Shown here: positions 1-40,640 of the stretch, in pieces
Layout: each line of letters starts with the position of its first letter
Numbering within the stretch: position 1 is the first letter of the stretch
Origin: Lepraria neglecta
Taxonomy: Eukaryota > Ascomycota > Lecanoromycetes > Lecanorales > Stereocaulaceae
Reading direction: 5' to 3'
DNA length: 64,000 bases
Assembly: GCA_033220425.1 (NCBI GenBank)
Contig: CM065646.1
Span: 3,479,501-3,543,500 of the forward strand
Position numbers and translations under genes: made by a program
Notes under the pieces: model-generated
What the model was told of the DNA's origin: nothing
The model's database searches: none
What the model saw: only the letters and a program-made list of their open reading frames with translations

Positions 1-302
1 CGGGTCTTAAAGCTTGAGCAGCTGCGTATAGATAGTATTGCGGTTCTTATAGGCTTAATACGTTCATACCCATATATAATATTACAAGTCCAGGTAGTAT
101 CCCTAGTCTTTAAATAGGGTGATAATCTAACTATAGTATTCAGGGAGCGAACGGCCCCCTATATACTTCAAACCTTTCCTTTCTAAGCGAAGTTACTCGC
201 TATAACGGGTTACTATAGGGCCCTACTAATTCGCCTATACCTGATTCCGCTTTGACACATTATCGTCGTGAACTACAAGGTTTAGCCACAAATTAGCAAC
301 TT

Positions 303-1062
303 AGTCACTACCTGGGAAAATTGCAAGAGATAACAGAAAAGGTATAGTAAGAGAAGGCCAAGGCGGTATAGATCGCTAATAGCCATACTCAGCTTAAGGT
401 TAAAATACGGGATATAGAGCAAGAGCTTTCTAATAAAAGCCAGAGGCTCTATAATATTACGGATTACCTCAAGAATATAAGCGAAAGTCTATTAAGAGCG
501 GAACTTCTTTCTAAGGAGTAATGGAGTATAGTTGTAAACCTCACCGGGGCCTTGCGTACATAAATCGTTGAAGGGAGGGAGATCGACGTGTCTAGCCTAT
601 TCTATAAGAAGGAAACGATAAAGTATGAGCTAAATAACTTGAAGGACTCTGTTAGTGATAAGTAGGCGCAATTGGACAGGAAGATATAGGACTTGGAAAG
701 TGCAAAGGCGGACAACGAAATTACTAGGACTACCTTGGAGTCTGCACTTACCGTTAAATAGCGCAATATTAAAAATCTCGCTAGTGAGCTCGGTGTCACT
801 GCCTAGAGACTCCAGCAACTGGAAGCGGTTAGTAAGCAATGGTCATCCGTGCTTGCGGCGAAGGATACTGAGATTAGTTACCTGTACTAGAGACTGTCGG
901 CATGGGAAAGCCAACCTAAGGTCGGTCCTGTACCGCAAAGGAAATACGCAGGACGTAATAGCAGATAATTCATTGAGATAAGTAATCATATCGTAGTCCA
1001 AGCGCACTCAGCATTTAAGGCACATATCATCTTGTCAGTCTTGGGCCTATATCTAATATAGC
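303..1062 (+). pseudogene. Coiled-coil protein remnant
   Basis: One forward frame reads as a long Glu/Lys/Gln/Leu-rich coiled coil, with stretches such as KIRDIEQELSNKSQRLYN and SLFYKKETIKYELNNLKDSV. It is crossed by roughly a dozen stops, all TAG or TAA, almost always where Gln would fit a heptad, which is what CpA to TpA mutation of CAG and CAA codons gives. No domain besides the coiled coil is visible and neither true end is clear; similar sequence (KLEQLR) starts at the window edge, so the gene may begin further left or be spliced. I do not recognise the family. The reading frame is well supported by its composition, the function is not. Confidence 0.5.
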
Positions 1063-1177
1063 GGGTTTAAATCTAGTTATAACATATAAGGAAGTAGAAT
1101 ATAAAGAGCAAAACACATATTTGCGGCTGTGAAAGTGAGCGAGTAATGTATACATAACCTGAAAAGATGACTGGCGT

Positions 1178-2061
1178 TTACTGGGTAGCCCGGCTTCCCG
1201 TTGTGCCGGTAAGCGATGGACCTACTAATAGACTCCCTTTCTGTTGTGAAATGTTCTGGACAGGCACCCAGACCGGGTGGACTAGACGGCGCGTGGTATA
1301 GCCGCTTTCGTCCACTTTGAGAAGAATAGGGATCCCCGTTACTAATACCGCCTCTAGAAGGGTAAAGATATCTGGGTTAATATCGAGCGTAAGAGCGTAT
1401 AGCGACTGGGGCCTGATCTCGGCGTTCGACGCGGTAATAGATGGGTTCGAGATGAATCGCGTGGTTTTAGAGGCCGACCGAAGTCGGCTAATAGTTATTA
1501 GCGGCGGCGCAGATGTATCCCCCAACTTCGATATTACTGGTATATGATAAGTAGATAGCTGCGGTATGGAAGGAGAGGATACGACTTACCTAAAGGCGAC
1601 TTGAAAGAGTCATACCATAGGCTACTTCGAGCTATAGAGGGACTCTATTGTGGCGTTAAGCTCGAGGGGAGGCTCCCCTGAGGCCTTCTAGTTACGCAAA
1701 GACTACTATCAATAGCGGTGTCAATCGACTCGCAGACCTCTAAGGATACTTGTGATATGGCAATTGGCAAGCGTCCCGCGCTCCTGCTCACCATCGCTGA
1801 TCCTTGGGAAACCCTTACATAGCTAGGCTCGTCTGGTACTACAGATATACCAGTAGTATATATGGTCGAGGGGGAGCTCTGCGTCAGTACCCATACGTTA
1901 CCGCCAAGGACATTGCTGTTACTGTCCGTTATGGTATATTTAAAGGTCGATGCTTTTTAGAGCGTAGTCACGCTTGCCGGAGGTATACTAAGACCTTGCT
2001 CACCGATCTTCCAAGACGGAGCCTCCATGAATGTAGTCGTCGTTGTGGCAGGACTTGCCAT
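1178..2061 (-). pseudogene. Ser/Thr-rich, possibly secreted protein remnant
   Basis: On the minus strand a frame starts at an ATG (complement of 2059-2061) as MASPATTTTTFMEAPSW and runs through a Thr/Ser/Val-rich stretch (TITDSNSNVLGGNVWVLTQ), then, after a few stops, into an uninterrupted 115-codon stretch (1178-1525). The composition resembles fungal cell-surface or secreted Ser/Thr-rich proteins, but I see no clear signal peptide. The plus strand of 1317-1547 is also open, so strand choice is only moderately safe. No family is recognised. Confidence 0.3.
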
Positions 2062-2400
2062 AAAAATACTAATTGTCAAGATTAATTCTGTAATGTAGCA
2101 CATGACGAATAGAAGATGATTTCGTTTGTAGGCGCTGTGCGCACTGGGAAGAAATAAGAGGCCTTAGTCTCCTACCGCGAAACTGGTAGTTGCTTAACTG
2201 AGGTCAGATTGTGGGGCAGCGCAATATTCGGCTTATTCCCTATATAGTCACACACAATATTCTACAGCCTCACAGCCGTTTCCTAACGGCCCCTTATTAG
2301 TGGGTGGGGTGTTCTATATTGAGAGGCAGATATTGCTGGCTATACTACGATAATTCACCTGTATATAGGAGCTATATTAAACTTAGTATTAACCTATAAG
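2062..2400. other. Stretch without a recognised gene
   Basis: No frame in this stretch gives a protein-like reading. It separates the minus-strand remnant on the left from the plus-strand gene remnant on the right and may hold their diverging upstream regions. Confidence 0.4.
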
Positions 2401-4223
2401 AGGGTCCTATTTAGCTCAATATCTTTACGAAACGCAAGCTCAAAGAATCATCGGTTAATCCGAGAATTAGTTTGCTCCGCTTAAATATCTTGTTAACCTA
2501 GGCCACACCTCTTCTAATATACCGACTATCTATTCAGAGAAAGGATAATCTTGAAAAAAGTTATCTTGACTATTTAGACTTCAAAGTCGGAATATCCGAA
2601 GCAAGTCCGGCCTAAAGCACGAACAGAATAGTTCAAGGGGCCGCGCAGGCTATTAAGCCTGTTAAATAATTGCCGCGGAATATTAATAATACAGAAGCGG
2701 CTTCCAATAAAGGTAGCGCAGATAATACAAGACATTAGAGTAGTGCTTAAGCTTCGGCAGAGAAAGGGAAGCATACCTTGACTGACGCAACCTAAGAATT
2801 TGCCGAAAATACAGATTACAATGAAGGCGGTGATAACGTGGAGACCGATAACGACGATAAGATGATTAAAGATGACCGACTAGTCCTAATGAATATAGAC
2901 CTACTCGTTGCAGACGCCTTTCGAGCGGACATTCATAGATAAGCCAAAGACGACTTGGTAATCCTCGTCAATAACCCTACGAATACTGCGGCAAGGCATA
3001 AAATAAACCAATTCAATGTCCAGATCAAAACGAGAAATCAATACGAGAATTATCCGCAGGACCGCATAGATGATTTCTTAATTAACCTCGACGCTTTGCT
3101 TCCGAATATGGAGATTGTGACCCGGCTCCGTGAAAAGGTAGCGAGAGATCCGGACCAGGAAGTGAGACAACAGTTAATCAAACAATGCGGAATAGTAAAC
3201 CAATTGATCACATCAAGAGGTTATCCGGAAGATTGGTCTATTAGTGCTCCAGAAGCAGCAGCGGACGGCGGAGCAGCATCCACCGGCGAAGCAGCATTTA
3301 CCGGCGAAGCAGCATTTACCGGCGAAGCAGCATCTACCGGCGAAGCAGCATCTACCGGCGAAGCAGCATCTACCGGCGAAGCAGCATCTACCGGCGAAGT
3401 AGCATCTACTAGCGAAGCAGCATCCACCGGCGAAGCAGCATCTACCGGTGAAGCAGCATCCACTGGCGATGTAGCATCCAACGGCGAAGTAGCATCCGGA
3501 GCGGCAGGACCCTCTGTAACAACCAAGCCGAGAACTGGGGGTGTCAAGACCAGAGTATCCGTTGAATTAAGGGATGAATCTGGCGGTGAGACTTCTCTTG
3601 GGAAGGTTATCTTTATCCAACCAATCGGGAACTATAGTGCACGAGTCATCGTCAATCGTGGAACAGAGATCAATCCATTGTATGAGACATACCCCGGTAG
3701 CATTTTTGGGCTAGGCATTGCCCGGCAATGGCACGCCGATAGAGATTATAGAATCGAAGACCTGCCCAAAGTAACCGGCGTAAAGGTGAAATAGGTTAGG
3801 CGAGTCACAGTCGCTTGTAGGGACTATGAACGAATCAGACGCAAAAGAGACAAACTGAATGCTAACATCCAGTATTACTTGATAGAAGTCTCGGGCAAGA
3901 TTTATATTGGCGCCAGAACGAAAGTTCTAAAAATAAAGGGAGTCGGCGCCAAAAATCTCGGTTTAATTAACAAGAGCTTAAGCAATGGGCAAGAGCAGTT
4001 ACGCGCGGAGCTTGATCAATTTCGGGCGAATAATCAACACCCGGACACCGGGAAGCAGCTAACCGCGGCGGATATTGATAAAATGCCATGGCTGTCATCG
4101 GACTCTATCCCCGAATCCGAGAATAAGGCAGGAGATGGGGACAGTGGCAACCACAAGGATGATAGAGAGCAGGGAGCTACCATCGAAATCCGAGATTTTG
4201 GTCTATCCCGGCGTCCTGGATAA
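2401..4223 (+). pseudogene. Hypothetical protein with AASTGE tandem repeat
   Basis: A single forward frame stays protein-like over about 600 codons, broken only by TAA and TAG codons, among them stops at 2940-2942 and 3792-3794. The best part is open from about 2943 to 3791. In order it holds a Lys-rich N-terminal part, an acidic segment (NEGGDNVETDNDDKMIKDD), a helical stretch (DDFLINLDALLPNMEIVTRL), the six-residue repeat, a compact region with KVIFIQPIGNYSARVIVNRG, and a tail with LIEVSGKIYIGARTKVLKI. The repeat has kept its frame. Stops fall where Gln is plausible, as expected from RIP. I do not recognise the family; no signal peptide or membrane segment is seen. A host cargo gene is more likely than a transposon gene. 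Confidence 0.6.
3277..3504 (+). repeat. 18-bp coding minisatellite, about 12 units
   Basis: Units close to GCAGCATCTACCGGCGAA follow one another about 12 times and encode AASTGE, with AAF, EVAS and GDVAS variants. The unit length is a multiple of three, so copy changes keep the frame of the surrounding gene. Confidence 0.9.
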
Positions 4224-6886: not shown

Positions 6887-9800
6887 CTAAGGGGACGGAT
6901 TGCCACGAGTCTCCCGAAATTCGCGGTTCCATCGTAATCGTCGTCTGTCCGAATATGGCTGTAAATCTTCGCTTACAGGTCTTTTGCCAATAACTGAGGT
7001 AGAGGCCTGACGCTGGTCATCGCGCCAAAGCTCTGACTCTGGCATTAGATATATCGTTCTCGTTCTATCGGCGACAACGGTTTTATAGTAGCTTATTAGA
7101 TGGAGCAGACTGAAATATGTATCGCAAGGCCTTATATGCTGCTTCAGATATTTTATCACCTCGTTCTTAACCTTAACTGGGCCGACAACGTCTTTGACGG
7201 CCTCCCAGCGGCCCTCCTTGAGAAGCCTAAATGTTATACTGATGTCTGCGCTCTCTCGTATATCGCTCTTCCCTGCTGATAGGGGTGGCGCTATAGTCGT
7301 AAGACCCTCACTTCCGTCAGGTACCTTATGTGTTTGGTCTGCTAAACTTTCAGAGATCTGGAGCTGTCCGCTTTGAGTCCTTTCATGATCGCTGCTGGAT
7401 ATTAACAGATTATCTAGTCCTGATGAATTATCTAGAACCTTGGCCAAATTAATTTGAGTCAAACGTTTTTAAGGATACTCGGTCGGGAGCTGGTGTTCCT
7501 CTTGTCCTGACACTTCTTCTTAATCCCCCCTTCTGATTCGAATAAGTCTTCCTAGCCCTATCTTTGTTGCTCCTATACCTCCTGTTCCTCTTCTGTCTAT
7601 CGCTGTTGACTTTCTTGCTGTAATACTGCAAGATTCTCTTCTTCTTGCCTCCGCTCTTATTCCTGTGCTTGCTCCCCTTCTTATTCCAGTTCTCTTCTAA
7701 ACTATTCTTGTTTCTACTACTCTTTTTGTATCTGCCTCTGTCGCGCTTCTTCTTCCAGCTGTTATCGCCTTTAATCTTGTTCTCGTGCTTACTCTTGCTC
7801 TTGTTCTTCTATTCGTGTCAGCTTCCGTCGCGCTTCTTCTTCCAGCTATTATCGCCTTTGATCTTATTCTCGTGCTTGCTCTTGCTCTTACTCTTCTATT
7901 CGTGTTATCCACCGTCGCGCTTCTTCTTCCAGCTGTTGTCGCCTTTGATCTTGTTCTCGTGCTTACTATTACTCTTGTTCTTCTATTCGTGTCAGCTTAC
8001 GTTGCGCTTCTTCTTCCAGCTATTGTCGCTTTTAATCTTATTCTTTCATTCGTGTCAGCTTCAGTTACGCTTCTTCTTCCAGCTGTTATCACTTTTGATC
8101 TTGTTCTTTTATTCGTGTCAGCCTCCGTTGCGCTTCTTCTTCCAGCTGTTATCGCTTTTGATCTTATTCTTTCATTCGTGTCAGCCTCCGTTGCGCTTCT
8201 TCTTCCAGCTGTTATCGCCTTTAATCTTATTCTTGTGCTTACTCTCGCTCTTGTTCTTCTATTCCTCTCAGCTCCCGTTGTGATTCTTCTTCCAGCTATT
8301 ATCGCTTTTGATCTTGTTCTTTCATTTGTGTCAGCCTCCGTTACGCTTCTTCTTCCAGCTGTTATCACCTTTGATCTTGTTCTCGTGCTTGCTCTCGCTC
8401 TTATTCTTCTATTCCTCTCAGCTCCCGTTATGATTCTTCTTCCAGCTATTATCGCTTTTGATCTTGTTCTTTTATTCGTGTCAGCCTCTGACGTGCTTCT
8501 TCTTCCAGCTGTTGTCGCCTTTAATCTTGCTCTCGCTCTTGTTCTTCTATTCGTCTCAGCTCCTGTTGTGTTTCTTCTGATTCTTATTCTTGCTACACTA
8601 CAACAGGGCTTCCTAGCTACTCCCCTGCTCCTTGTGCAAGCTCGCTATCCACTTCTACGACCTCTGTTCTGCGATGACCTATAAGGTATAAGTGAGTATA
8701 AGGGTTCAGGTCCTGTTCCTGCTCTTGCTGCACTACGACAGGGCGTTCTATCTCCTCCTCTCCACCCTGCGCAAACTCGCTGTCTATTTCCATACCCTCT
8801 GTTCTTCTATGACCCTGATTAGCTGCGAGCTGTAAATGAGTATAAGGGTTCAGAGCCGACGGAGCAAGTCCTAGTCTGCTGTAAAATTTCAAAAATACGG
8901 ATTTGCGAACGAAGAAGGAAGTAATTCCCTTACCTTGTTTCTGAGAAGTATCATACAGATTGTCTATAAAGAGAAATACGCGGTCTGCTTCGTTCGCTTT
9001 TGTACGTGGTAGACTATATCTCCGCTTCTTACTTTCCCCTGGACCGTCAGTAACGAGTGCAGGTTTGGCTCGCTTAGAGCTGAATATCATCGAATGGTGG
9101 TACTGCCTTAGTGCAGTGATCTCGGGAGACTCGAAACCCAAGCGGACGGCCAGCTTAGCAAATCCACGTAATACCTTTCTATCCGCCTTGATTGCCTGCC
9201 TCGCTAGGAGGTCTTTACGCTTAGATTCTCGGGGTATGTCGAAATAATAGCGCATAGCAAAAGCGTATAATTGTCGACACCCCAATTCCACCTGATCTGT
9301 AGAGCTTGCGGGTCTAGACGCAAAGATGGACTCGGTAACTTGTACTAAAGCCTGGTGTGCTTGCTGGTTCGCGCCCTTGAAGATGTCCTCTATTACTGTT
9401 GATACCGTGTCTCGTAGACAAATGTGTGTTAGCCTTTTCAAGCAATCCGCATAAACTTCGAGGGTCTTGATATCCTTAAAGAACGTAAATAGAGAGGGTA
9501 TTAGGCTATCGACCGCTGGCAATCGATCCCATATTCTCTCACGCTCTTGCTCGGTAAAATCGTTGAAAATCGTCCCACTCAGCAATTGGCCGCGAAGCGA
9601 CTTGGCGTCCAGTGTCGATGCCTGAGGCGCCGTGAGCTCTAGAGCCCGAATAGTAGCTTGGTCTACCCTTCCTATGGCGTTTCGGTCTTCCTACAGCAGC
9701 GTGTACCAGACCTCTTTTATATAATTAAGGTATCGCAAAATTTCCTACTAATGAGTCAGCGGAACAGAGTAGTGATAGTAATAAAGTATGTTGAGTTGAT

Positions 9801-10719
9801 TAAAGAAGAAGAAGCATGCAAATATAGTTGAAGATACTACTGACTAAGTATGACTAAGCAATTTCGATACGGGATCTACTCGCCTCATCGCATCTGAGAG
9901 CTATCATCTTGTGTAGTATACTGATCCTTATCCCTCCCCAAAGCCCTGGAATATCTAAGAGAGTATCGAAAGCAGCAGTGAGCTCATCATGCCGGAATAG
10001 CTACTTCAGATTCCTGCTTCTGTATAGAGTCAAACAAGCCTACTATCGCCGCTCGAAGCTGAGGTTCCGTTTATAGTAGTATTGATGTATCTTGCGATAG
10101 ATTTCGCCGTCGGTAGGCTTTTTCTCGTTAGAGTATTCCTCGATTAAGCATGTTTTCAGCTACCGACTCAGATCTAAAAACTTCGAGTATCAGTCAGGCC
10201 TATTCCTAATGGAGCTGATCTTACCGGTGAGATAAAGGTCGACAGTCTACCACTTATCCCAACGCGACAGGACCTCTCTACCTGCCTGAATTCTGTGTTA
10301 ACTGTAAAGATATTCGAGCTGGTAACCGGGCGGGAAAACTAACTCCGGGTAAAGGGTTTGTGCACGACTCAGCAGAGCTTCCCTCGCGAATCCGGATGCT
10401 TATATAGCCACATCAAGATGTTACTAGTCAATCAGAGCGACGATATAGTTACGTATGTCGAGCCGACGATAATTTTTCCGGAAGTCCGATTTCAGCTTTT
10501 CTACGTTCTTTCTATCGAGCTCTCTCGACTGGTTACTTCGGAAACCTAGCCACTCAAGCCCGACTCGAGCGGTGCCTCTATACTTAAGCCTCTTTTCTGC
10601 CTCGAGCTTGAGTTCCTCCTCTTAAGACCGACTTTGAGGTATTCTTAGAAGTTTCGATATCTGGAGAGAGAGTACTTAATAATACTACGAGCGGATATTT
10701 CTAGCAGATCCTCACCCAT
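6887..10719 (-). pseudogene. DUF3723-domain protein (Starship auxiliary gene)
   Basis: Followed leftward, one reading runs through the whole of a DUF3723 protein. Landmarks are GTARVGLEWLGFRSNQSREL and YRRLDIRNYIVALID (10.4-10.6 kb), ALLSRAQTLYPELVFPPGYQ (10.3 kb), KKPTDGEIYRKIHQYYYKR (10.1 kb), LFRHDELTAAFDTLLDIPG (9.95 kb) and EILRYLNYIKEVW (9.7 kb). A long open block follows (8617-9685) with LLSGTIFNDFTEQERERIW, then a Gln/Glu coiled-coil repeat (7.6-8.6 kb), and an open C-terminal block (6887-7462) with SADISITFRLLKEGRWEAV. Most stops are TAA/TAG at Gln positions, and a G-run near 7530 seems to carry an indel. The start at 10719 is tentative. DUF3723 has no known biochemical role but is one of the genes repeatedly carried by Starships. 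Confidence 0.85.
7645..8600 (-). repeat. Gln/Glu coiled-coil tandem repeat inside the DUF3723 gene
   Basis: About 14 degenerate units of roughly 60-90 bp are seen. On the coding strand they read as variants of QQLEEEAQRRLTRIKEQDQK with several TAA/TAG codons. On the plus strand the same DNA gives long Leu/Phe-rich frames that are shadows of the repeat. Confidence 0.8.
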
Positions 10720-12080: not shown

Positions 12081-12119
12081 TGTCTTGGTGCCACTGCAAT
12101 ATTTGCCCCTGTTTATTTT

Positions 12120-12336: not shown

Positions 12337-14116
12337 ATGGATATATTGCAGGCCTACGCTATTGCCGCGGGCGGCATATTTGTGCTTTTCATCATCGCCA
12401 ATTGGTTTCCTTATGTCATACGCTTCGTCTGGCAGGTCTCTCTTCTCACATCCAAGTACCTCATCTATCCATATCTCTTCAATCGTTATCGATACCTGGG
12501 TCTATGGACGCGAGCCGGTATCCTTATCAAACTGATCTACATCACAGCGAACCTCTTCTGTCTCGGCTTTCGATACTCCACAGTCTTGCAAGCTGGCCTT
12601 CGAGCCGCCACGCTCTCCTTGATAAATATGATCCCTTTGTTCGCTGGCCCCCACCTCAGCTGTCTTACTGACATACTTGGCATCTCGTTCGCAACATACC
12701 GACGGATCCACAGGTCAGTGGGCTTAGGATCATTCGCTCTCGTGCTTCTGCATGCTCTTATCGTTCTTATCGACCGAGGCTCCTTTTAATTAGCTACCAA
12801 CAGCCACCTATTTGGGCTTGTTGTAGGTTCTGATCGCTGGCGCCTACCGGTCTCTTACTGACTGCTACTAGGGGGGGTGGCTCTATGTCTTCAGATTTTT
12901 TTTTCCTACCCTGCATTCCGTCGGGTCTCTTTCGAAATCTTTCTACGTACGTATCAAGCGTTGGCTGTGCTTCTGATGTATTCCATTTGGCGGCATCTAC
13001 CAGCCGACGGACTTTTCCCTCGCCTTTACCTGTATATCTGCGTTGCCTTGTTCCTTATAATACTCCTATTCCAAATAGTAATCATCTTATATCGAAATGG
13101 GTCTTTCCGGTACAGTCGCTCGCGAGCCACTATCTTACACATCCATGGCGCGGTCAAAGTCAGCATCAGGTTATCGAAACCGCTCCACGTGGAACCGGGA
13201 CAGTACATTAATCTGTGGATTCCTTCAGTCAGCTTCTGGTCCTTTATACAAAGTCACCCTTTCATTATCATATCCTGGGCAGACGCAAAGCAGGATACTC
13301 TCGAGCTCTTTGTGGAGCCTCGCAAAGGCTTGACCCGAGAGCTCTTGTGCTACGCCAAGACCGGCCAGGAGAGCGGCGCGAATGGTTCTTATTGGGTGTT
13401 GTTCAGTGGGCCCCACGGAACGAGTGCGGCGGTGGGCGAATACGAAAACGTGATTATGATCGCTGACGGGTTTGGTATAGCGGCTCACCTACCTTACCTG
13501 AAGAAATTAATCTATGGTTATAATGCCCGTAAGGTTCGAGCTCGTCGAATCCACTTGATTTGGCAACTAGAGAATATAGGTAAATGGTTAGGACTGAGGA
13601 TACGTTATCCGGTAAAACTGACCGGTGTAGAAATCGGTATCGCGGCTCAATCACTGTTAAATCGTGCCTTGGACGACGATACTTTGGATCGAGGCTATGT
13701 CAGAATCCAACTACCATACATATCGATGATTTTGCTAATTTACTGCCCAGATTCTCTGTATATCGATCTATCTTGAATCTGGTAATGTTCAGAAAGTTTC
13801 TTTTGGCTGACGTGCTACCGTCTACAGCGGCGCTGCTAGTATACAGGAAATACTATATAAGGAGGTGGTGGGGGAGTTTCTCGATGACAACCCGAAAGAT
13901 GTCGAAAGGCTGCAAGAGGAGGCCTTGGCTCAGAATATAAGAGGAAAAACGCTGATTATGGGTGAGTTTTTTTTCGCCATGTGAAGCCAAAAGGTTAATT
14001 ACTATCTAGTATCTGGAACCGAGGAGCAACGAGACGATGTACGGAGGCTAGTACGCAATTATTTGGATAGTGGGGTAACGATGCTGGAGTCCGAATATCA
14101 GCCGATGAAAAAATAA
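12337..14116 (+). pseudogene. Ferric reductase (FRE) family protein, nearly intact
   Basis: This is an NADPH oxidase/ferric reductase-type membrane flavocytochrome, expected to reduce extracellular iron or copper. The N-terminus has several membrane helices (AAGGIFVLFIIANWFPY) with haem-region residues such as RIHRSVGLGSFALVLLHAL. An FAD-binding section follows with the diagnostic IQSHPFIIIS, then an NAD-binding section with FSGPHGTSAAVGEYENVIMI, and the C-terminus RRLVRNYLDSGVTMLE. Four short introns are apparent, near 12823-12871, around 13575-13635, near 13701-13752 and around 13962-14009; the first acceptor lies in a G-run and is uncertain by one base. Only two in-frame stops are seen (TAA 12787-12789 and TGA 13808-13810), so this is the least damaged gene of the left part. 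FREs are recognised Starship auxiliary genes. Confidence 0.9.
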
Positions 14117-14610: not shown

Positions 14611-14619
14611 AGGAGAAGA

Positions 14620-15770: not shown

Positions 15771-16265
15771 ATACCTCCCAAAAAGTCGAAGCCGACCAAA
15801 AAACCGCAGCCGACCAAGAAATGGTCTCTATACCCATCACTTCACAATAATGTACTCGACCTCATTCGCGAGTATAGCCTTTTCTTCCAATTTCACGACG
15901 AAGACGATGACCAAAATTGTATAAGCAATTATGACACGCATATCATCGGTCGATTTACCTGTCCCAATCATTCGTGTCCAGCCCGTGTCTAGACTAGCAA
16001 GCAGGTAGCCGTTACTATACGAGAATATTCTAACGGGCGATACAATGCAAGAGTATATTATCAATCTTGCAAAAGTTGTAAGACACTGGTTGAACCAGAG
16101 CTGGATCATTTATACGCACAAAGAGTCGCTTACCGTATTAAAAAGTGGTGCGGAGTGCAGATAGACGCTCCTCCCTTCTCAGGCCAGAGCAAGGGTCTAT
16201 ACAGGAGCGATCTATGTGAAGGGTGCAAGCAGGGTCATTGTAGTGGACTGGGACTGCAACCTTAG
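15771..16265 (+). pseudogene. zf-3CxxC zinc-binding protein
   Basis: The frame from 15771 to 16265 gives a 164-codon protein with the three CxxC-type zinc sites of the zf-3CxxC family: GRFTCPNHSCPARV, YYQSCKSCKTL and LCEGCKQGHC, plus conserved YNARVYYQ and AYRIKKWCGVQ. A basic N-terminus (PPKKSKPTKKPQPTKK) precedes it. The natural start appears to be the ATA at 15771-15773, which fits an ATG changed by TpG to TpA mutation, and there is one in-frame TAG at 15990-15992, at a position where the family usually has Trp. Two RIP-type changes thus seem enough to inactivate it. Its function is unknown; zinc and nucleic-acid binding are plausible. Confidence 0.8.
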
Positions 16266-21807: not shown

Positions 21808-22613
21808 CCTGATTTCATAAGTTGCATATAATCGTGCACGCTCTTTAATTCTAATGATAATCTTCCAGGTAGCACTTACACAGGATGTTCGGGGGTGTCC
21901 TTTATAGCCGGTATCTGCTTCTTGAAGTACGGGCTTAACGAGTCCGTTACGCCTGTCTTTAATGGAAACGCCAGTTCTGCTATCTTGCATTTTCTTGGTT
22001 AGTATAGATGTATATCGAATAACGGTCTGTTCTAGAGCAACTCAGGTTTTTTTGCAGTCCTTGATCTTGCCTGAAATTTCTGAAACAGTCCATACTTGTT
22101 AGATTAGGGCTTTGTTGCTTGTTTCTTGAGTTTGTAATCCACTAGATAGATTGAATGGTTACCTGTCAAGAACATAAAACAATGCAGAACGTAGCTTAAA
22201 TCGTTTCTGGCTACAGGCGGGTCTACCAGAGGAGCGGCGGCGAATATGCCATTCCTGTCGCCGCCCGTGCAAGCCAAATCAGGCAGAGTAATCAGCGAAA
22301 GGATTGCGGGGCCCAGAGGATTGTGTGGCGTCGTGTGAGTCATCCTCTTTCGTGGGGCGGATGACCGTAGCTTGCACATAAAGCTTGGCCAATGACCGTC
22401 TATGCTTTTAGCGGCACTTTATAATAGCTACTTCCTCTTTAAATATACTTCAAGCTTCTTTTGAAGTCATTTTGTCATCCGGGTGCCTAGAATTCCTGTC
22501 ACCGTAAAAGTCTAGTTATCTCAAAAAGTGAAATTTATTTTATGGGCGCGATGTGATGGATTCGAACGCGGGTTAACCATTTCTAAATATCCTAGCTATC
22601 CACTATATTTCCA
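21808..22613. other. Stretch with unassigned minus-strand frames
   Basis: A minus-strand frame at 22104-22379 (ILSLITLPDLACTGGDRNG, VLHCFMFLTGNHSIYLVDY) and another at 21802-21990 are open, but they do not resemble a family I know and may be chance frames. A GTTCGAATC string on the minus strand near 22556 is discussed under rejected items. Confidence 0.3.
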
Positions 22614-24285
22614 CTAATTGCCGAATCGGGCAGCTATATACATATTTTCAGCGAAAGCGTTATTAATACCGCTCATCTCCTTAATCTCTGCGATCGCTCT
22701 ATTAAATTTTCTTGGCGATGCAGTCCGGCTAGCCCGTAGTATTATCAAAATGGCGAGCTTCTCGAAGGTTGGTATCGGGATTGAACGAACAATCTTGAAC
22801 GCCGATTCATTAGCCCTTGTAGGCTGATTAACGTCAGCTCCATACTCGATCAGCTCTTTGACGGTTTGGAATTTGTGGGGAAACTCTGTAGGGGCCTTAT
22901 GGGTAGGCCATATACACGCTTCGATTAGAGGCGTACATCCGTTTTAACTGTATACGTCAAGGTTGGTACCGTAGCTTACGAATACCCTTATAATCCTAGG
23001 ATCGTACTAAATCACCCAGTCTGCCCGTTCTTTCATCCAAGCCTCAAGTAATTAGGTATAGCCTGTATACCCTAGCTTGGCTCCCGCTTTGAGAGCAAAT
23101 TCTATTACCTTGCTATTACCCTATCTCAATACCAGTATAAGTGGCCAGAGCTCCCGTTGTTGGGGACTAAAATTTTAGAAGGGACGATTAATATTGGTAC
23201 CGTGCTCAAGGAGTATCCTGATAGTCTTAAGTCTTTCCCCTAGTCTTTGCTCGGCTAGAGGTATAATTCTTTCGTTCGAGAGCGACCAAAATCCCCCAGG
23301 TCTGCTTATTCGTGATATCGCGAAATATAACGAATCGTATTATAACTTGCTATTTCGGGCGTTAACGTCGGCCCTATACTGAAGAAGCATCCGTATTATT
23401 TCTGTCTGTCTAGCCTGAGTTATAGTTATTAACAGGGTGCAATCTTGGCTGCTCCGGTCTTCAATATTGGCGCCACGCCCGAGGAAAAGCTTAATCACTT
23501 CGAAGTACCCGTATGACGCCGCTTGATATAGAGCCGATTTACCTTTCTCTAGACCTAAATGCCAGTCGGCTCCATTCCTGAGTAGCAGGTTGACTATGTT
23601 GAGACTCTGGATGGCGCGATTCATAACGATTGAACCATGGAGAGTTGCGGTATCGACCTGGGCGCTATGATTAAGTAATAGTCGTATAATACTTTCGTTG
23701 CCTGAACGAGCTGCAAAATAGAGCGGGCATCCTGTCTTTTCCGACATGAGTGAAAATAGTGGTCAGCTCCGTTTCAGAGTAATCAGTCGCTCTAAAATTG
23801 CACCTCTTCTAATAAGATACTCTATAATACTGTACTGGCCTGATATCGATACATAATATAGCGCTGAGGTCGGGATACAAAACTCCCGGTGATACAATTC
23901 CTCCTTCTTGGCCGATAGTTGAGTATTCTCGGACGAGCACGCTAGGGTAAGGAGATTTAGATCTCCTATATCGGCGGCGGATGCTATAAGCTCGTACAGG
24001 TCGCTATAATCTAGTCCACATAATATTTTAACGATATAAACATGTATAATAGACTTCTAAAGCTCTAAAGAATTAGTTAATATCAAGAATTATAGTACGA
24101 GTTTTACGCGTACGGCAAACCTATAGCCAGCCTTTAAGATAAGCCTTATATATTACGAAATAATCCTCTTAATCGATATTAATAGAGCTCTTATTATTCT
24201 TCCTATCATTAAACTAGGCAAGATAGAAGCAAGAGTATAAGAAAATCTTATCTAATATCTCAAGCGGGAGACTATTAATACTTAT
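22614..24285 (-). pseudogene. F-box and ankyrin-repeat protein 1
   Basis: The N-terminus (24.2-24.29 kb) reads SINSLPLEILDKIFLYSCF, a clear F-box core; the codon before it is ATA, fitting a lost ATG. A linker with YSDLYELIASAADIGDLNLL follows, then ankyrin repeats: ALYYVSISGQYSIIEYLIRR, a fully open block at 23340-23747 (PLYFAARSGNESIIRLLLNH, ALYQAASYGYFEVIKLFLGR, IIRMLLQYRADVNARNSKL), and further repeats down to KELIEYGADVNQPT near 22.8 kb. Such proteins usually act as substrate adaptors in SCF ubiquitin ligases in fungi. Several TAG/TAA stops break it outside the open block. A second ankyrin gene lies directly upstream on the same strand. Confidence 0.75.
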
Positions 24286-24499
24286 CCTACTTAAAGTAAT
24301 CTCTAGTATTACAAGGAAGCTTAGCAGCGATTTATCTCTAGTGAATATTATAGATATATTAGGCCGTATAAACTCGGTAAGAAACCGGTGTAGGTCTAAA
24401 AATAGGCGCCTAGCTATCCTCTCATACACTAAATTTAGAATTTCTAAGTACTAGATATAGAAGATACTGCAAAAGCTCTTCTATATTAATAGAATGGTA

Positions 24500-26051
24500 A
24501 GACTAATATTACATCAAGTATCCGTCTATACTCGCGTCTAAATATCAAGCTTACATAAAGCCCTGCCTATCCTTTTACGTGCTTCTCGGGTACTAAGTAC
24601 TTATAGTACTCGAAGGATATCTAGCCTTGTCTTATACGATCTTCGTAAGAGCGGATGACCTTGACTAGTAACTACCCGTCCATATTGGATTTACTAATAT
24701 TAGTACTATACTTGAGCAGAAGTTCAAGAATACGAAGCTTCTTTTCTATCAAGCCCTCACTATATAGTTAAAGTGCTAAGTTAGTTAGGGGTATTCTTCC
24801 CCTGGTATTAAGCTTGTTGGTATTGGCGCCGTTGGCCAATAAGACTCGGATGATCGATATATCGATATCCCCCGAAAAGAATCCTGTGATAGAGCCTTCT
24901 AACGGTATCCACCTATATAGGTAGGACTTCTCGATATCTGCCCCTGCTTTTAATAGGATGTCCGTTATCTTAGGTTCGTTCTTATCTATCGATAGGATCA
25001 AAGGTATAATTAGGCGCCCTCTACCACTTATATCTACCCCGTACTCAAGTAGGACCCGAATAGTGGTTTCCTTAGTCTTGTTAGACCTGTAAAGGTTCGA
25101 ATAGTCGCCGATTATAGCCCAGGAGAGAGTATTATATCCTACTATATCCCTGGTCGCGTATATTGGACTACGATAATTGATATCCGATGGATACTTCTCG
25201 AGAAGTATCCGAGTTATAGCAGAGTAGCAGCCTCTAGAAGTCCTGTAAAGGAGCGTAAGACCCTTGTAAGTGTTGTAAAGCCTGGGCTTAGAATCAAGTA
25301 GTAACCTCAGGACTTCGATATAGCCACGATCAGCTACGTAATAGAGGACAGACTCATTACTAAGGGCTTTGATTATAGGGTCGGCGTTGTACTTCAGAAG
25401 TAGGTATACTCTTACGAGAATATTCCCTGTGTACCTAGAATGATCCTTATCTTGCTAAGGTAGCGAGCGAATTACCCTAAATAGAGCTGAGCGGCTACGA
25501 AAAGATAGTATTGAGTTTACAGATACCCCTTTTTCAAGTAGCAAGCGTATTATAGCCTTACTCCCTCCCTATTAGGCGCTCGTATATAAGGGCGTCACCC
25601 ACGTACCTATCGGTAACCTCCCGACTTCCGGCTCGATGCCCGGGTTAAACTCTGCTACTTCGTTATAACAGAGGGCGCGGTATATCTCCGTGTAATAATT
25701 TGGACGTTAAGAAGGGTATTTGCCCTGGATATCAACGCCCTTGTCGATGAAGAACGCTACTATAGAGTGAAAATTTTTAGCCGCCGCGGTGTATAATGCC
25801 TTAACCTCTAGTAGATAATATAGACGAGAATAATACCCGAAGTGGTCTATAAATTTCGAATCCGCAAATCTTGACAATACACCAGGGTATAGGTGCGCCG
25901 TGCTCCCTTTATAGTAAATACTAGAGAGTAGCTTAGCCTTCGTCGTGAGATACGCAAGCTTTATTACTATAAGGTTCCTATCGAATACGGTATCGTTAAT
26001 CCTGTAACAGAATTTCTTCGACGGCCAAGTCTCTATCTCCTTAAGCATCAA
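24500..26051 (-). pseudogene. Ankyrin-repeat protein 2
   Basis: An open N-terminal block (25707-26051) begins MLKEIETWPSKKFCYRIND and includes ALYTAAAKNFHSIVAFFIDK. Ankyrin repeats follow with few stops: IIRLLLEKGVSVNSILS, LYYVADRGYIEVLRLLLDS, LLYRTSRGCYSAITRILLEK, TIRVLLEYGVDISGRG, and an open block at 24768-25001 with ILLKAGADIEKS and IIRVLLANGANTNKLNT. The C-terminal end is indistinct near 24.5 kb. No F-box is visible at its start. Its arrangement with the downstream F-box/ankyrin gene suggests a tandem pair of related adaptors, possibly old duplicates. Confidence 0.7.
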
Positions 26052-26220
26052 ATGCTTGACTATAGATTGCTATTACCCTGCTTATCGATTTAGTTAAAGT
26101 ATAAATTATAGTAGAAAGTATATACCGTAAACTCCATAATACCTATGTAAATCCTGGGATACTAGGTCCGGTTGGGTCCCTAGCTGAGGACTATACCTTG
26201 CCCAATTATGACCGCTAGAG

Positions 26221-26451
26221 TTAGACCACTCGGAGCTTGTGTACGAAAGCACCTGTGAAATAGTCTCCGTTGGGATATATTCGTACTTTATTATTGCTTA
26301 ATCCTCTGGCGAAATATATAGAGATCCTATCCTTAAGGTTCTGAATTATTAAAATAAGAACTAAGAAATAAAAGACGGCTAAGACTATAATTTGGAATAA
26401 TATCAGCCTTAGAGTCGACTTCGAGCGGTATACGTACAGTAATTCTTCCAA
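26221..26451 (-). pseudogene. Possible membrane protein fragment
   Basis: A 76-codon open frame contains one strong hydrophobic segment (LILFQIIVLAVFYFLVLILI) followed by RISIYFARGLSNNKVRIYP. It could be part of a decayed membrane protein. No family is recognised, and AT-rich DNA gives such frames by chance. Confidence 0.25.
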
Positions 26452-26538
26452 GCCTTCCCACGTACTGAACTATAAATTTAGTTAGCCATTAGTCTATAGA
26501 AAGAAAACCCTACTAGCTAAGCTAATACACCCCACTTC

Positions 26539-28815: not shown

Positions 28816-29585
28816 GAAATCACCAGCGTGTGGCCGAAGCCTTGGCCTTCTGGGGTGTTGACTCTAGGTTAGAACTTGGGGTCAAGCTATTGCGGATACT
28901 GGCGGCTATTATAGCTGGCCAGGTTACCGATAATAAAGGAGTCGTCGTCTTTACTCAGTATCAGGGATGGTTTGTTATATACTTCGAATTCCTAGAATAT
29001 CTTATGAGACTATTGTCTACTCTCTCTAAGGCATATGGACTTATAGAGAACTACGTATCCGTTTTTGCAAAACGCTGGTCCTATTTATAGGGACTTTTCG
29101 AATCGTTGCTATTTTCCGGAGGTCTTTCTCCGACCGGTTTTCCAACAAGACTTGCGGGAATCAATCCAGAGCCCCCTTTTTTCCCCGAACCCCTATATAA
29201 GTAGATACCTGGTTAATACGTCTGTTCATTCGATACGGGGTAGCAGTTGCTTCTTCGAGCATTTTGTACAATGCTACTTATAATTTCTCATACTCAAAAT
29301 CATTGTTCTATTTTTTCCACTCTTTCAGTTCTATAGCCCCTTTATCCTTTCTGAATCCATCGCGTATATAGCGATAGAGATTTTTGCGAGCTTAAAATTC
29401 TTCACCCATATTCAAGTAGTACGCTTAGTACGCTTAGTACGCTATTGCGCGAAGAGCAAGTAAGGATTTCTAGTAACTGTGCGCGTGCTGCGATCGATTT
29501 CCTTCCTAGGAGCTTAATTTTCCTAATCGCGCTCTCCTAGGAGCGTTGATCAAACAAAACCTTCTACGCCTCCTGGATAAATAGT
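28816..29585. other. Stretch before the satellite
   Basis: Only short frames are seen. Three tandem copies of the 9-mer TAGTACGCT lie near 29415-29442, and single CCTAGGAGC motifs appear at about 29503-29553, just ahead of the satellite that is built on that motif. Confidence 0.4.
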
Positions 29586-30038
29586 CCTAGGAAACTGTGC
29601 CTGGGAGAGCGTAGGTCCTAGGAGAACTCTCCCTGGGAACACTGAAATCCTAGGCACAGCCGCCTAGGAGCCCGCAACTACTGGGACAAGGTGGCGTCCT
29701 AGGAAACTGTGCCTGGGAGAGCGTAGGTCCTAGGAGAACTCTCCTGGGAATACTAAAATCCTAGGCGCATAGCCGCCTAAGGGAGCCCGTAACTACTGGG
29801 ACAAGGTGGCGTCCTAGGAAACTGTGCCTGGGAGAGCGTAGGTCCTAGGAGAACTCTCCTGGAAACACTGAAATCCTAGGCGTATAGCCGCCTAGGAGCC
29901 CGTAACTACTGGGACAAGGTGGCGTCCTAGGAAACTATGCCTGGGAGAGCGTAGGTCCTAGGAGAACTCTCCTGGAAACACTGAAATCCTAGGCGTACAG
30001 CCGCCTAGGAGCCCGCAACTATTGGGATAAGGTAGCGT
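29586..30038. repeat. 112-bp tandem satellite rich in CCTAGG
   Basis: Four head-to-tail units start at about 29586, 29698, 29813 and 29926 with lengths of 112-115 bp. Each begins CCTAGGAAACTGTGCCTGGG and contains further CCTAGG or CCTGGG palindromes and a GCCGCCTAGGAGC segment. The units are highly alike and more GC-rich than their surroundings. Isolated CTAGGAGCG motifs occur on both sides (near 29540, 30273 and 30430). Confidence 0.9.
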
Positions 30039-30479
30039 CTGTGCTTGGTATTATCTTTACGAGCGTGTGAGATAGGCGGGAACGTCAGAGTCTCGCCTTA
30101 GCTTGGGAAATTCTATTTTAATTCCCGCTCAAATGCGTGAATATGAAAGATTGTAACTTTTCTTCCTACTATCACTAAAACATTGAAAAGGGTTTTTACT
30201 TCCTGGTTTGACTAATCTTTATTAAAAGGGTTTGGGCAGGGCGATATAGGCGTTGCCGTCTTGGATAAAGATCTCTCCTAGGAGCGTAGAGGTAGTTATA
30301 TATAAAAGGATCTAAATAAGCTTATCCTCTTCAATAATGCTATAGCGGTTGACCTGATTTTGGGAGTTCTGTCGGCACCAACTTGTTGCAAAATCCCCAG
30401 GTCAGGGGGGAGTTCTTGACGTACCATCGCTAGGAGCGATCTCACGGATTTTGGCTCCACGAAATACCTCTCTTATTTG
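30039..30479. other. Stretch between satellite and P450 remnant
   Basis: No gene is recognised. Two more CTAGGAGCG motifs (near 30273 and 30430) link it to the satellite. Confidence 0.4.
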
Positions 30480-31114
30480 CTGTCCTTTAAACGTTGGAAG
30501 TTTCGCTTATCTCGAGTACCGTCATTACAGCTTCCAAATGGCTTAAGGCGTGGTTTATTCGCGCTTCTAGGACTATCGAAGTTGATTCCAGGGTGGATCA
30601 TAAAATGCACTACTTTACTTAACCAATCTTGTACCGTTACCTTCTTCGTTAATTCCCTAATACTGACTCCTCGCCTGCTTTCGAATCTCTAGCGCTGGAG
30701 CTTATCGTAGAACTCTACGACTACTGCGTAGCCGGGTATGAAACGACTGGTCAGATGCTGACTCGCGCTATATACGCCCTTTCGTCTCGACAGGATGTTC
30801 AAGACCTTCTTTATTCTGAACTTTATTCCTTGGGGGCGTGTCCCTTCTTCAACGGGGAAACTTCGAGAGTCTCAGCGGTATTATACGTGTTGTACTATAA
30901 TCCGCAGGTGTTCCCTTCGCCAAATGAATGGCACCTATTTTCAGGCGCCTGGCGTACCCGAAAAGCGAGGTAGAATGGGCAAGTCATTGGCCGGGATCTC
31001 GCCATATTCGAGATGAAAGCGGTGTTGGCTGCTATTTATGCGAACTACGAGACCACGTTGGTCGATAGACAGGCTGAAAGCGCCGACCTTTGCGCTTCTG
31101 GTGTGGTACTGTAA
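30480..31114 (+). pseudogene. Cytochrome P450 fragment
   Basis: The I-helix is clear near 30707-30750 (ELYDYCVAGYETTGQMLTRA, with the AGxET motif), followed by SRQDVQDLLYSEL. Then comes VLYYNPQVFPSPNEWHLF, the region before the haem loop, and GRDLAIFEMKAVLAAIYANY, the L-helix after the haem Cys. The segment between the I-helix part and the NPQVF part is shortened (the ExxR region is not seen), and the haem-binding Cys itself is not visible. The N-terminal half is unclear. It would have been a monooxygenase at the ER; here it is a broken piece of likely cargo. Confidence 0.7.
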
Positions 31115-34913: not shown

Positions 34914-35652
34914 GATATTACCGAATACGAGACAATTTCTTGCCGCTGGGAAATTAGGGGTCGTATATAGGATTGATCCTGAAAGAGTCCTGAAAGAGTT
35001 CTACGATGGTAACGGGGGTGAAATTGAACGCCGGGTATATCAGCGGCTTGGTTTATACCCTAATATTGTAAAGGTGCTGGATACACGGACGGATGGCTCC
35101 ATTATTCTCGAGCGAGGTATACCCCTTCGGATGATCTATCGAGCTTCCTCTACAAATAAGATACTAATTCTAACGAAAGTTTACTGGCTAAGACACGCAG
35201 CTGAAGGCTATTAGTATTTATACGCCCGCGACATTATTCATAGCGATATTGGATGTAATAATCTAATTCTAACGGGGGAGGACTATATAAAGTTGATTGA
35301 CTTTGAAGGCTGCAGTATTGATAGTGGACCGGCAGGTTCCTGCTACGAATGGTTTAGCTACTACCTATCGATGCCTCGAGTGAGTCGACGTACGGATATT
35401 TTCGCATTCGGCTGTGTAATCTACGAAGTTTTGGCTGGGAGACTACTATACTATAAGCTCGAAATATCGGATGACCTATATAAGTAAGTTGAAGAGCTAT
35501 ACGCAAACTAACACTTTCCTGATGTTACGAATCTTCCCCTTGGTCAACTAATACGGAGTTGCTAGTATAGCGATATCAACTCTATAAGCGAGGTTATTCA
35601 AGAACTAGAAGCGTTTCGTACTAGGCCCCTCAGGTGAAAGGTGTTATTATAA
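34914..35652 (+). pseudogene. Small fungal protein kinase
   Basis: The frame reads FLAAGKLGVVYRI (Gly-rich loop region), VLKEFYDGNGGEIERRVYQR, GLYPNIVKVLDTRTDGSII, then the catalytic loop DIIHSDIGCNNLIL (HSD in place of HRD), LIDFEGCSIDSG (DFE in place of DFG), and TDIFAFGCVIYEVLAGRLLY (APE-distal region). It ends with FPDVTNLPLGQLIRSC and EVIQELEAF. Size and variant motifs suit the small fungal kinase-like proteins that often sit in accessory regions. A few stops are present, and the start is uncertain because no ATG lies at the expected place. The block 35293-35487 is open. Confidence 0.75.
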
Positions 35653-37319: not shown

Positions 37320-37847
37320 AACATTTAGATGATACGAGATAGTAATGTGTAGTGATAACGAACCCCTGGAGGATATAGTAATACTGGTGGTTCTGCTAAT
37401 TCAATGGCGGGTCCAGTAAGGGAAATATAAAGCCCGCAGTATGATTTTTGAAGCCGGTACGCCCGGCGAACTCAGTATAGCTTCCCGAAATATAGAACGT
37501 AGCTAGGGCTTTCTATAAGTGCCTTTTTGGTCGAGTATATTCGTTTGTGCGCTCCCGATGAGACTTGCTTTCAAGGTGGGGGTAAACGAGGCACGGGGTA
37601 AGCTTGTATACCGCGAGAGGCAAGCTTTGATATATCCGTCTAAACCGTCTGTAGAAAGAAAAAGATATACAGAGATTAGAGACTTGAATACTTATTCAAT
37701 TAGAAAGAATCAATGTATAAGGGGTGACCAACTCAGCTAGCTCGATACTAGACCGAAGTATCTGAAAGATAACGGTGATTGGATCTTGGTTACTCCTGAG
37801 GTGGTCGTCTTGAAAAACAAAATACAAATTTGAAATAGGCGAACTGG
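37320..37847. other. Stretch between SET remnant and captain
   Basis: Only short frames without a family are seen. It lies downstream of the 3' ends of two converging genes. Confidence 0.35.
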
Positions 37848-40088
37848 TTAAGTAGGTATTTTGTACACTAGCGCCGCATGGTTCTGCAAATACATTATGC
37901 CTGTCAGATCCACGTCGCACCTCGGATGGGGGCATCGGATCAGCTGACCGTCTGGGTGATAGCGGAGGTGGTAACGTTGGAAATGCTTTTTCAGGTCGCC
38001 GTGGCTGGAGAAGGGCCTCAGGCGTCTCGCTGCCGGGAAATCTTCCTTGCCAAGGCAGAAAATATATTATATAGGTTTATATTCGATCGGGAGAGAGTCT
38101 AAAAGACTCCGTCCTTGAAGGGCGGAGGGCGGGGTCCGATCACGTCCAAGCTTGATAGTTAAAGCGGAAGGTTTCAGGCGGTATAGACGCTTGCCTTCCT
38201 GTAAGCGGCACAGGGCTGTTAGAGTATTGATCGCTTCTACCCGCCGTTTATACTCTTCCTTAGGGGATGGCGTCGCGAAGGTAAAGAGCGCGTTAATAAC
38301 CCGGACACGCTCTACAAAGACATAATCCTCTGCTGTCGCCGTCTCCGGTTCAACGGATAGTAGTCCTTTCAGCTGTCGTTGGATGTCGATTACCGGCTGC
38401 TCCCTCTTATACCTCGCTTTGACTGCTTATAAGAGAGTATCCTCCTACCGCCGTCTCGTATTGCGATAGGCGCGATAGGCTTCTTGATATTCGTCGTAGA
38501 TAGGAGTCCCTATTATACTGGCGATAGTTCTCTTCTTATCTGCGAACCACTACCTCCGCGATTGGAGCCTCCGACGTAGAAGCCTTACCTCGGGGTAACG
38601 GTTGACCTCTGCTTGTTGAGCGGTAGTAAGTCTCCTCAGCCGTCGTCGATCAATCGTGCGACTCATCCCACTAGCGGCTCGTATCAACGCGGTTTAGGGT
38701 TCTAAGCCGCGGTAGGCGGCGTGAGTGTCGGGTATATACTTCGAGGCGTAGTTCTCCTGGAATACTCTGGAGTTACGATGTTACAGGACTAGGTTCCGTT
38801 GCGATTCGGTGATAAAGCCTATATAACTATTAACCGACAGCTGGAGAAATAATCGACGGACTACTTACTGCTATTATTAAGGGCTTCGCCGTTACCCCGT
38901 CGAAAGGTATATAGACCGGTAGGAAGCTCTATACCGGTGATACTTCCAAGGTTAACTATCTACGAGCGGAGAGTACTGACGGGCAGAGCTTTATCGTCCG
39001 AAATTCGAACCCTATTTATAGTAGATTAGGATCGGCGGAAAAGGGGAACGTTTTGTATCGTATCCTTAAAAGGCACCGGCAGCTGTTTCTGTCCCGGTTG
39101 GATCCGGAGACGGAATAATTATTTAGGGGAAGTCAAATCGGGGGCGGCGAAGGCCTGATCGGTAAAGATTAATATAAGTAGGTTTAGCTGAGGATAAAGT
39201 AGCAGGCATGGTTCGTTAGGTATATCCGGGATCCCGAACTCGTTCCTGCTATAAACGTTAGCTATCCAACTAAAGTCCGTTACAAACAGGGCGCAAAGGG
39301 GAAGACCGACGTGTCTTTTTCCCCTAGGTAGCCTTTTGTATTTATAAATACGATCTTAATTAACCTTCGAGGAAATTCTCCTCTATTAGGATCTAGAAGT
39401 AAGGTAACCTTAATATATTTATAACGTAGAGCTAAGAGTATAGAAGGCCGGTTACCGGTAATGCCTACAAGTTATATAATCAAGGCCAGGTCTATACGGT
39501 GCCGCTTATAATTAAATATTACCTCGATAGAGAGGTATAGGGTCTTGAGGAGCTCGAACTCATCCTCGGTACGTATAATCGGCTTCTTCTTCTTCTCCGT
39601 TCGTAGCCTATATTTGATCGCTAGTTACTATCTTACCTGCTCCTATTTAGTAAAGGACCACGTATATAAGAAGGCGCTCGCGTACTCCTTGTATCCGGCT
39701 CTTGACGAGCGGATCGATCTGTAGACAGCCTGTCTCTTTCCTTCGCACTAAGTAAAATATATTCTAATATATTTGTAGAGTACTGGCTGTACCCAGGCTG
39801 TCTTTTTGAACGGAGAGTAACCAGTTAAAGAAGGCGTAGAGGATATTAATTAGAATCTTTTCGAGGGTAATAAGAGGGTCTTTCTTAGTGAATATACAGT
39901 ACCTATAGATATTAATCAGATCGCCTTAGTCCAGTCTACTAAAGGCAGGGTAAATCTCCTTACTAGTCCTAAAGGTTCTTGATCCAGCTCTGCAGATCCT
40001 TAGTACTCGCCTTATAGACTCGTTAGGTGAGAGTCAATACGTCAAAATCAGCTTCCATTTCCATATAGTATTCCGTCGAGTGTTCCAT
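37848..40088 (-). pseudogene. DUF3435 tyrosine recombinase, Starship captain
   Basis: From an ATG (complement of 40086-40088, MEHSTEYYMEMEADFD) the gene reads leftward through YRYCIFTKKDPLITLEKILI, RTEDEFELLKTLYLSIEVIF, LVGITGNRPSILLALRYKYI (first catalytic Arg, near 39448), NEPCLLLYPQLNLLILIF, SDDKALPVSTLRS, YTFRRGNGEALNNS (second Arg, near 38904), RNLVLQHRNSRVFQENYASK (His near 38779, nucleophile Tyr near 38750), then YRGLEPQTALIRAASGMSR and a helical arm. A C-terminal zinc-finger tail follows (HGDLKKHFQRYHLRYH, RCPHPRCDVDLTG). Two GT-AG introns fit well (38819-38868 and 39246-39310), and a third is likely near the N-terminus. About fifteen TAA/TAG stops, mostly at Gln positions, inactivate it. 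Captains sit at one end of Starships and are transcribed into the element, here leftward. Confidence 0.88.
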
Positions 40089-40640
40089 TGTCTGTTCCAC
40101 CGCTTTGCTATACCCTCGGGGAGCTATAGGGTCGATATACGGGGGCGGTAGGAGGTAGAGGTAGAGTATTTAGGAGTAGGGACGGCGATAAGAGTATAAG
40201 AGGATAAGGCGAGGGGTAGAGGAGTATAAAGGATATGGTTATTAGGGATAATTGGACAAAGAGAATGCCTGAAAGAAAATAGCCAGTTCTTGAGTCGTCG
40301 CAGAGGGACCAGTTCTAGATATATAGTGTAGAGGGGAGAGGGGGGACATGATATATATAGTATTAGACCGTATATAGGAGTAATAGAGACTGAATCGAAG
40401 TGCCGAGCTGGGCGATACGGTTGTCGATAGCCGTGACTATATAGGAGCGAAAAAGAATTAGGGCGGTGGGGGTGCACGGGTCCTTGGCGTTAGAGGGGAA
40501 GCAAGGGGGGAACCAGTAGGGCGGTAGAGGATCTGGTAAAAAGGCGCCCAAAAGCGGCGCCCGAACCTGCCGGAAACGGTAACCTTTTTGCCGTCCCTTC
40601 GTTTAATCTTATAATTTACTTTTATAGATCTAGAGAAAGG
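40089..40640 (-). promoter_or_regulatory. Captain upstream region, candidate Starship 5' edge
   Basis: The 550 bases upstream of the captain are polypurine on the plus strand and less AT-rich than what follows. Near 40545-40605 lie facing segments (AAAAAGGCGCCCAAAAGCGG and GGTAACCTTTTTGCC) that could fold back. Base composition falls sharply to very AT-rich at about 40610-40640. Since captains usually start within a few hundred bases of the element end, the Starship edge may lie here; this is inference, and no target duplication was identified. Confidence 0.35.

Follow-up and report, generated by a model that had tools for sequence, protein, structure and literature searches.

The DNA analysed here is a stretch of 64,000 nt from Lepraria neglecta (GCA_033220425.1, CM065646.1, 3,479,501-3,543,500, forward strand; called the window below, with positions counted from its first base). 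It carries the relic of a DUF3435 tyrosine recombinase gene, a series of genes and gene relics on the 3' side of this recombinase and, upstream of it, a cluster of Gypsy retroelements, one of which breaks off abruptly. We regard the recombinase as the candidate captain of a Starship and the region as a probable, though not proven, derelict element of this kind, whose decay fits repeat-induced point mutation (RIP). The recombinase relic and its parts are:

37848-40088, minus strand: DUF3435 tyrosine recombinase relic, candidate captain, placed by PF11917 matches in three frames and by motif coordinates
39249-39310, minus strand: candidate 62-nt intron (GTCGGT...ATAG), which would account for the first change of frame within the DUF3435 domain
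38819-38868, minus strand: candidate 50-nt intron (GTAAGT...TATAG), which would explain the second frame switch inside the domain
37851-38066, minus strand: Cys/His-rich C-terminal tail of the recombinase, an open stretch

In a Pfam scan of three-frame translations with stops written as X, the recombinase relic covered positions 2-417 of the 418 in the PF11917 profile. The three matches, one in each frame, follow one another along the minus strand, with E-values of 2.7e-15 (profile 2-95), 1.5e-34 (85-215) and 1.4e-46 (212-417). The initial annotation of this DNA had described a DUF3435 recombinase reading leftward at 37.8-40.1 kb and had suggested a search against captain profiles as a check; strand and span both hold, and the profile match was found, at a best E-value of 1.4e-46. 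The gene runs from a candidate ATG at 40,088 to a closing stop at 37,848, and is interrupted by ten in-frame stops in the domain segments and one in the C-terminal tail, all of them TAA or TAG. The two frame switches within the domain need not be mutations, because two GT-AG stretches would join the frames; for the 62-nt candidate the 5' splice site has a poor consensus, and a 65-nt alternative fits too. Putative active-site residues, chosen by eye and by spacing, are the Arg of TGNRP, the Tyr-x-x-Arg of YTFR and the Tyr of ENYASKY. With the candidate introns removed, this by-eye assignment places them about 159 and 34 codons apart; the corresponding spacings in the Sanctuary captain are given as 164 (R260 to Y424) and 31 (R427 to Y458) (PMC12506042, section 11). 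By analogy to the same report, the Cys/His-rich tail is a possible DNA-binding end. No other minus-strand Pfam match was found upstream of the recombinase as far as 40.6 kb, and a PDB sequence search with the frame-1 reading of the recombinase gave 0 matches at E<=10.

The second line of evidence lies upstream of the captain, where the following features are found:

41967-41968, no strand: junction between foreign DNA on the left and truncated Gypsy A on the right, accurate to within a few bases, preferred candidate for the 5' edge
41967-44566, minus strand: Gypsy A, reduced to its 5' long terminal repeat (LTR) and the beginning of its internal region, from self-comparison and alignment
41042-41688, no strand: 249-bp tandem repeat, about 2.4 copies, between captain and junction
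41938-41958, no strand: perfect 9-bp inverted repeat with a 3-nt loop, about 8 bp inside the junction

One Gypsy family is present in three copies, A, B and C, all in the right part of the window. Gypsy B (46,081-59,447, minus strand) and Gypsy C (52,155-58,861, plus strand) each retain both LTRs and are flanked by the target-site duplications TAAAG and TATAT, respectively; C is nested inside B in opposite orientation, and both are heavily RIP-mutated. Gypsy A is without its 3' two thirds, about 4.2 kb comprising the rest of pol and the 3' LTR; the counterpart in Gypsy C is 54,650-58,861, which ends in the LTR of that copy. In a three-way alignment it stops matching at 41,967, while B and C go on at about 89% identity, and self-comparison (matches of at least 60 nt at E<=1e-6) listed no further piece of this family in the DNA left of 41.9 kb. 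Across the break, the counts of CpA+TpG against ApC+GpT shift from 32/35 (41,501-41,966) to 5/42 (41,967-42,400). Read most simply, the DNA left of the break is an insertion into Gypsy A. The abrupt break, the absent remainder and the contrast in RIP are what would be predicted for a Starship that had entered a Gypsy element, and the break is located upstream of the captain, on the side expected for a Starship 5' edge. Some Starship families are reported to prefer insertion into other transposable elements (PMC12134995). We take about 41,967, the clearest discontinuity found, as the best candidate for the 5' edge; the right border at 40.64 kb given in the initial annotation is not supported. 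Should the junction be the edge, with the left end beyond the window, the element would be longer than 41.9 kb; a minimum of about 15-20 kb is reported for Starships. Between Gypsy A and Gypsy B we also observed the relic of a MULE transposase (44925-45188, plus strand; PF10551, E 1.8e-11).

A 22-base motif at the junction occurs a single time when up to 3 mismatches are allowed, and the 40 best short matches listed between 40.1-42.0 kb and the window included no credible terminal-repeat partner. A resemblance of the junction to the published Starship repeats or targets ATTAC and A(N)TAGT was dropped, since both occur within about 20 bp and the comparison does not discriminate. The Rfam search of the whole window gave 0 matches at gathering scores; a sub-threshold match in 40.0-42.1 kb (23 bits, cut-off 38; E 0.047) was taken as chance. 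ARAGORN found no tRNA genes.

On the 3' side of the captain, the candidate cargo consists of the following genes and relics:

9100-10468, minus strand: DUF3723 gene relic, domain-matching span (PF12520)
12610-13584, plus strand: ferric reductase relic (PF01794, PF08022, PF08030 partial)
15942-16235, plus strand: zf-3CxxC gene (PF13695, E 3.7e-15) with one in-frame TAG
18325-20592, minus strand: CSC1/RSN1-type channel pseudogene, four domains above cut-off in a single frame
22617-25454, minus strand: ankyrin-repeat gene relic or relics (PF12796 and relatives), open fragments
30698-30823, plus strand: borderline P450 fragment (PF00067, 22.4 bits, cut-off 22.8)
35032-35493, plus strand: protein kinase-like gene relic (PF00069, E 1.4e-9)

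The Pfam scan behind these assignments covered 1-37.8 kb of the plus strand except about 12.0-12.26 and 13.94-14.4 kb, and 0.6-40.6 kb of the minus strand except 2.88-4.82 kb, 20.82-22.0 kb and two gaps of less than 60 nt; right of 41 kb it covered both strands at 44.56-46.08 kb and the minus strand at 46.0-52.6 and 59.45-64.0 kb. Within this scope, the zf-3CxxC gene, the ferric reductase and the CSC1 channel of the initial annotation were all recovered. Three domains match in the ferric reductase, the NAD-binding match ending at profile position 48 of 156. The channel frame has 756 codons with 15 stops (12 TAG, 3 TAA), and its homology to OSCA/CSC1 structures spans several masked stop positions; it is clearly a pseudogene. 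The DUF3723 gene had been called full-length. Its domain is indeed covered from position 2 to 396 of the 508 in PF12520, but the gene is not intact: the first part (199 codons, profile 2-183) contains 10 in-frame stops, nine TAA or TAG and one TGA, whereas 9100-9687 contains none. Other members of the proposed cargo fared less well. One of two predicted kinases is supported, while the second, at 10.8-12 kb, reaches only 18.2 bits against a cut-off of 31.7; the P450 is reduced to a sub-threshold trace of 42 residues around 30.7 kb; and from a predicted F-box/ankyrin pair only the ankyrin half stands. The parts scanned contain zero Pfam matches for SET, F-box or patatin domains, so that the predicted SET gene finds no support and the reading of 24.2-24.45 kb as an F-box was rejected.

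DUF3723 and ferric reductase represent two of the four recurrent Starship accessory families (DUF3723, FRE, PLP and NLR), and both are named among the recurrent Starship genes in PMC12506042; ankyrin genes are listed for the Starship Horizon (PMC9594970). Such accessory genes are not obligatory, most of them being reported absent from Gaeumannomyces elements. Three further observations concern the same side of the captain. Two adjoining open stretches share one frame at 2943-4220 (plus strand) with no Pfam match of note, the first encoding about 13 copies of an 18-bp repeat of the A-S-T-G-E-A type; a CCTAGG-rich 113-bp unit is repeated four times in tandem at 29584-30039; and at the left edge, 402-776 (plus strand) gives a sub-threshold match to PF22714, a NACHT-associated C-terminal domain (E 0.038; 14.5 bits, cut-off 27), possibly the trace of a NOD-like receptor (NLR) gene and possibly chance.

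The decay of these genes fits RIP. Across 12 coding stretches of our choosing, 107 of 109 in-frame stops are TAA or TAG, and the ferric reductase and DUF3723 each contain one of the two TGA stops; for the NLR and Gypsy, these stretches are whole frames around Pfam matches, and some of the ferric reductase and kinase stops may be intronic or natural ends. The ankyrin frame at 22,002-26,471, whose 1490 codons are mostly not shown to be coding and whose exons are undefined, was omitted from this set; its 53 stops are 26 TAA, 23 TAG and 4 TGA. Depletion of CpA, expressed as observed over expected, reaches an extreme 0.08 in the Gypsy pol stretch. The three DUF3435 segments are strongly depleted (0.28, 0.37 and 0.53), the channel and DUF3723 mildly (0.75-0.82), as is the recombinase tail (0.84); depletion is slight or lacking in the ferric reductase (0.90) and zf-3CxxC (1.01), and lacking in the NLR at the right end of the window (1.04). 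The composite RIP index is graded as well: the retroelement cluster has 1.2-1.3, the recombinase about 0.8, 24-36 kb about 0.6, 2.5-24 kb about 0.0 and the right-hand NLR -0.3. The term "RIP-decayed" of the initial annotation is thus correct for the captain and for 24-36 kb; to the rest it applies only weakly, even though RIP-type stops are present there too. The idea that the excess of TAA and TAG reflects recoded stops was rejected, since non-coding and retroelement DNA shows the same depletion of CpA. The right-hand NLR is a HET-NACHT-WD40 gene (60682-64000, minus strand) that is cut by the window edge and keeps a single frame with five TAA/TAG stops, at least two of them at positions where Trp is usual in such proteins; its WD40 part contains 126-bp repeats that are about 85-90% identical.

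The observed basis for the following proposal consists of the recombinase domain and its orientation, the cargo families, the stops of RIP type and the sudden end of Gypsy A upstream of the captain. A DUF3435 tyrosine-recombinase element of more than 41.9 kb would have integrated 2.6 kb into Gypsy A and split it there. The 5' edge of this element would be at about 41,967, with the captain transcribed leftward into the element, and the opposite end, with the remainder of Gypsy A beside it, would be located beyond the left limit of the window. The genes for DUF3723, ferric reductase, channel, ankyrin, kinase and zinc-binding proteins would have been cargo that moved together with the captain. 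RIP would later have placed TAA and TAG stops in the captain and in much of the cargo, and given the stops in the captain, we propose that the element is no longer mobile by its own enzyme. We estimate the probability that the region is a Starship remnant with its captain end in the window at roughly two in three. That such a remnant also has its edge at 41,967 falls somewhat short of an even chance in our judgement, the joint figure being lower because an alternative with a different edge shares the Starship part of the proposal. The Starship interpretation of the initial annotation thus stands with respect to captain profile, orientation, recurrent cargo families and RIP, with its border moved and its SET and F-box genes unconfirmed.

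Several observations weigh against this proposal. A DUF3435 gene is reported to be solo more often than it is a captain (PMC12134995), which is part of the reason why we call the element probable, not proven. At least two further frame switches lie upstream of the DUF3435 domain, at 40.04-39.88 kb and 39.70-39.62 kb, the latter without a convincing intron. About 1.9 kb would separate the candidate captain ATG from the edge upstream of it, a larger distance than the roughly 350 bp reported for Sanctuary (PMC12506042); the 249-bp tandem repeat occupies part of this gap. Terminal or direct repeats could not be paired within the window, the left end lying outside, and a patatin gene was not seen in the parts scanned. 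The NLR, for its part, sits at 60.7-64 kb, beyond the retroelements and on the opposite side of the captain from the cargo. The level of RIP also varies along 1-41 kb: at about 24.0 kb, in or next to the ankyrin genes, the index rises in a sharp step from 0.06 to 0.85 in adjacent 500-bp windows. Segments with different histories may meet at this step, and the stretch therefore need not be one element. A second joint is possible at about 41.04 kb, where the counts of CpA+TpG against ApC+GpT change from 37/72 (40,151-41,040) to 40/40 (41,041-41,500), a change that also speaks against an edge at 41,967.

The likeliest alternative is that a solo DUF3435 relic, or the stump of a small element, came by chance to lie in a RIP-affected region among ordinary accessory genes. 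RIP changes at about 24 and 36-38 kb suggest several segments, and in Verticillium only 21% of DUF3435 genes are reported to be in identified Starships (PMC12289983). Chance would, however, have to account for two recurrent Starship families within 31 kb on the expected side, and for a DNA break upstream of the captain at which the remainder of a retroelement is lost; we consider this explanation unlikely. Next to it, and unlikely too, is a Starship remnant for which 41,967 is not the edge: another element or a deletion would have cut Gypsy A, and the edge would lie nearer the captain, for example at 40.2-41.04 kb, not far from the border of the initial annotation. RIP depletion is strong at 40.15-41.04 kb and nearly absent at 41.04-41.97 kb, so that the two may differ in origin, and much of the latter interval is made up of the 249-bp tandem repeats, which show little depletion though RIP-mutated DNA lies on their flanks. 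Yet the 40 best short matches listed include no credible pair of repeats bounding 41.04-41.97 kb. A repeat-rich accessory region of the ordinary kind, built from nested retrotransposons and duplications with no Starship involved, would suit the crowding of three Gypsy copies, a MULE relic and an NLR pseudogene at the right, but we hold it to be very improbable, as it does not account for a captain-type domain that is near-complete, correctly oriented and accompanied by DUF3723 and ferric reductase.

If the Starship proposal is true, the locus adds a Starship in decay whose candidate insertion point has been mapped within a Gypsy element. The 4.2 kb that Gypsy A lacks would then be predicted beside the far end, which would give the full length from one genome, without relatives. 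A more speculative extension, which we think improbable, is that the captain belonged to a lineage targeting a site near the gag-pol boundary of this Gypsy family and thus landed in silenced repeats rather than host genes; the uneven RIP would then record once-multicopy blocks (the captain and 24-36 kb) as opposed to the nearly unique 2.5-24 kb. A captain domain interrupted chiefly by stops of the RIP type also matters for searches that expect open reading frames.

Published work already covers Starships, captains damaged by RIP, RIP across whole elements and insertion into transposable elements, so that the present locus is at most another example of these. Like Starships of the Pezizomycotina such as Horizon and Sanctuary, it combines an inward-reading DUF3435 recombinase with DUF3723, ferric reductase and ankyrin cargo, and both insertion into transposable elements and RIP-damaged captains, as we read them here, are reported for Starships. 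In contrast to these elements, only one end would lie within the window, the captain is a pseudogene, as is much of the cargo, and the candidate edge is about 1.9 kb from the candidate ATG. The type A Starships of Gaeumannomyces tritici are described as having a positive composite RIP index throughout, averaging 0.2-0.3 (PMC11905480), which resembles what we see; RIP at the present locus is nevertheless uneven by comparison, being highest over the captain and 24-36 kb, and the Gaeumannomyces tritici elements were called by starfish and synteny in nine strains, whereas we worked from a single sequence. A further parallel is the derelict Horizon of Parastagonospora nodorum, a degraded former Starship that is likewise known by fragments (PMC12506042, PMC12257634). 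That element was recognised through its homology to an intact Starship, whereas the present locus was recognised without an intact relative; what is new here is the Gypsy junction and the prediction drawn from it.

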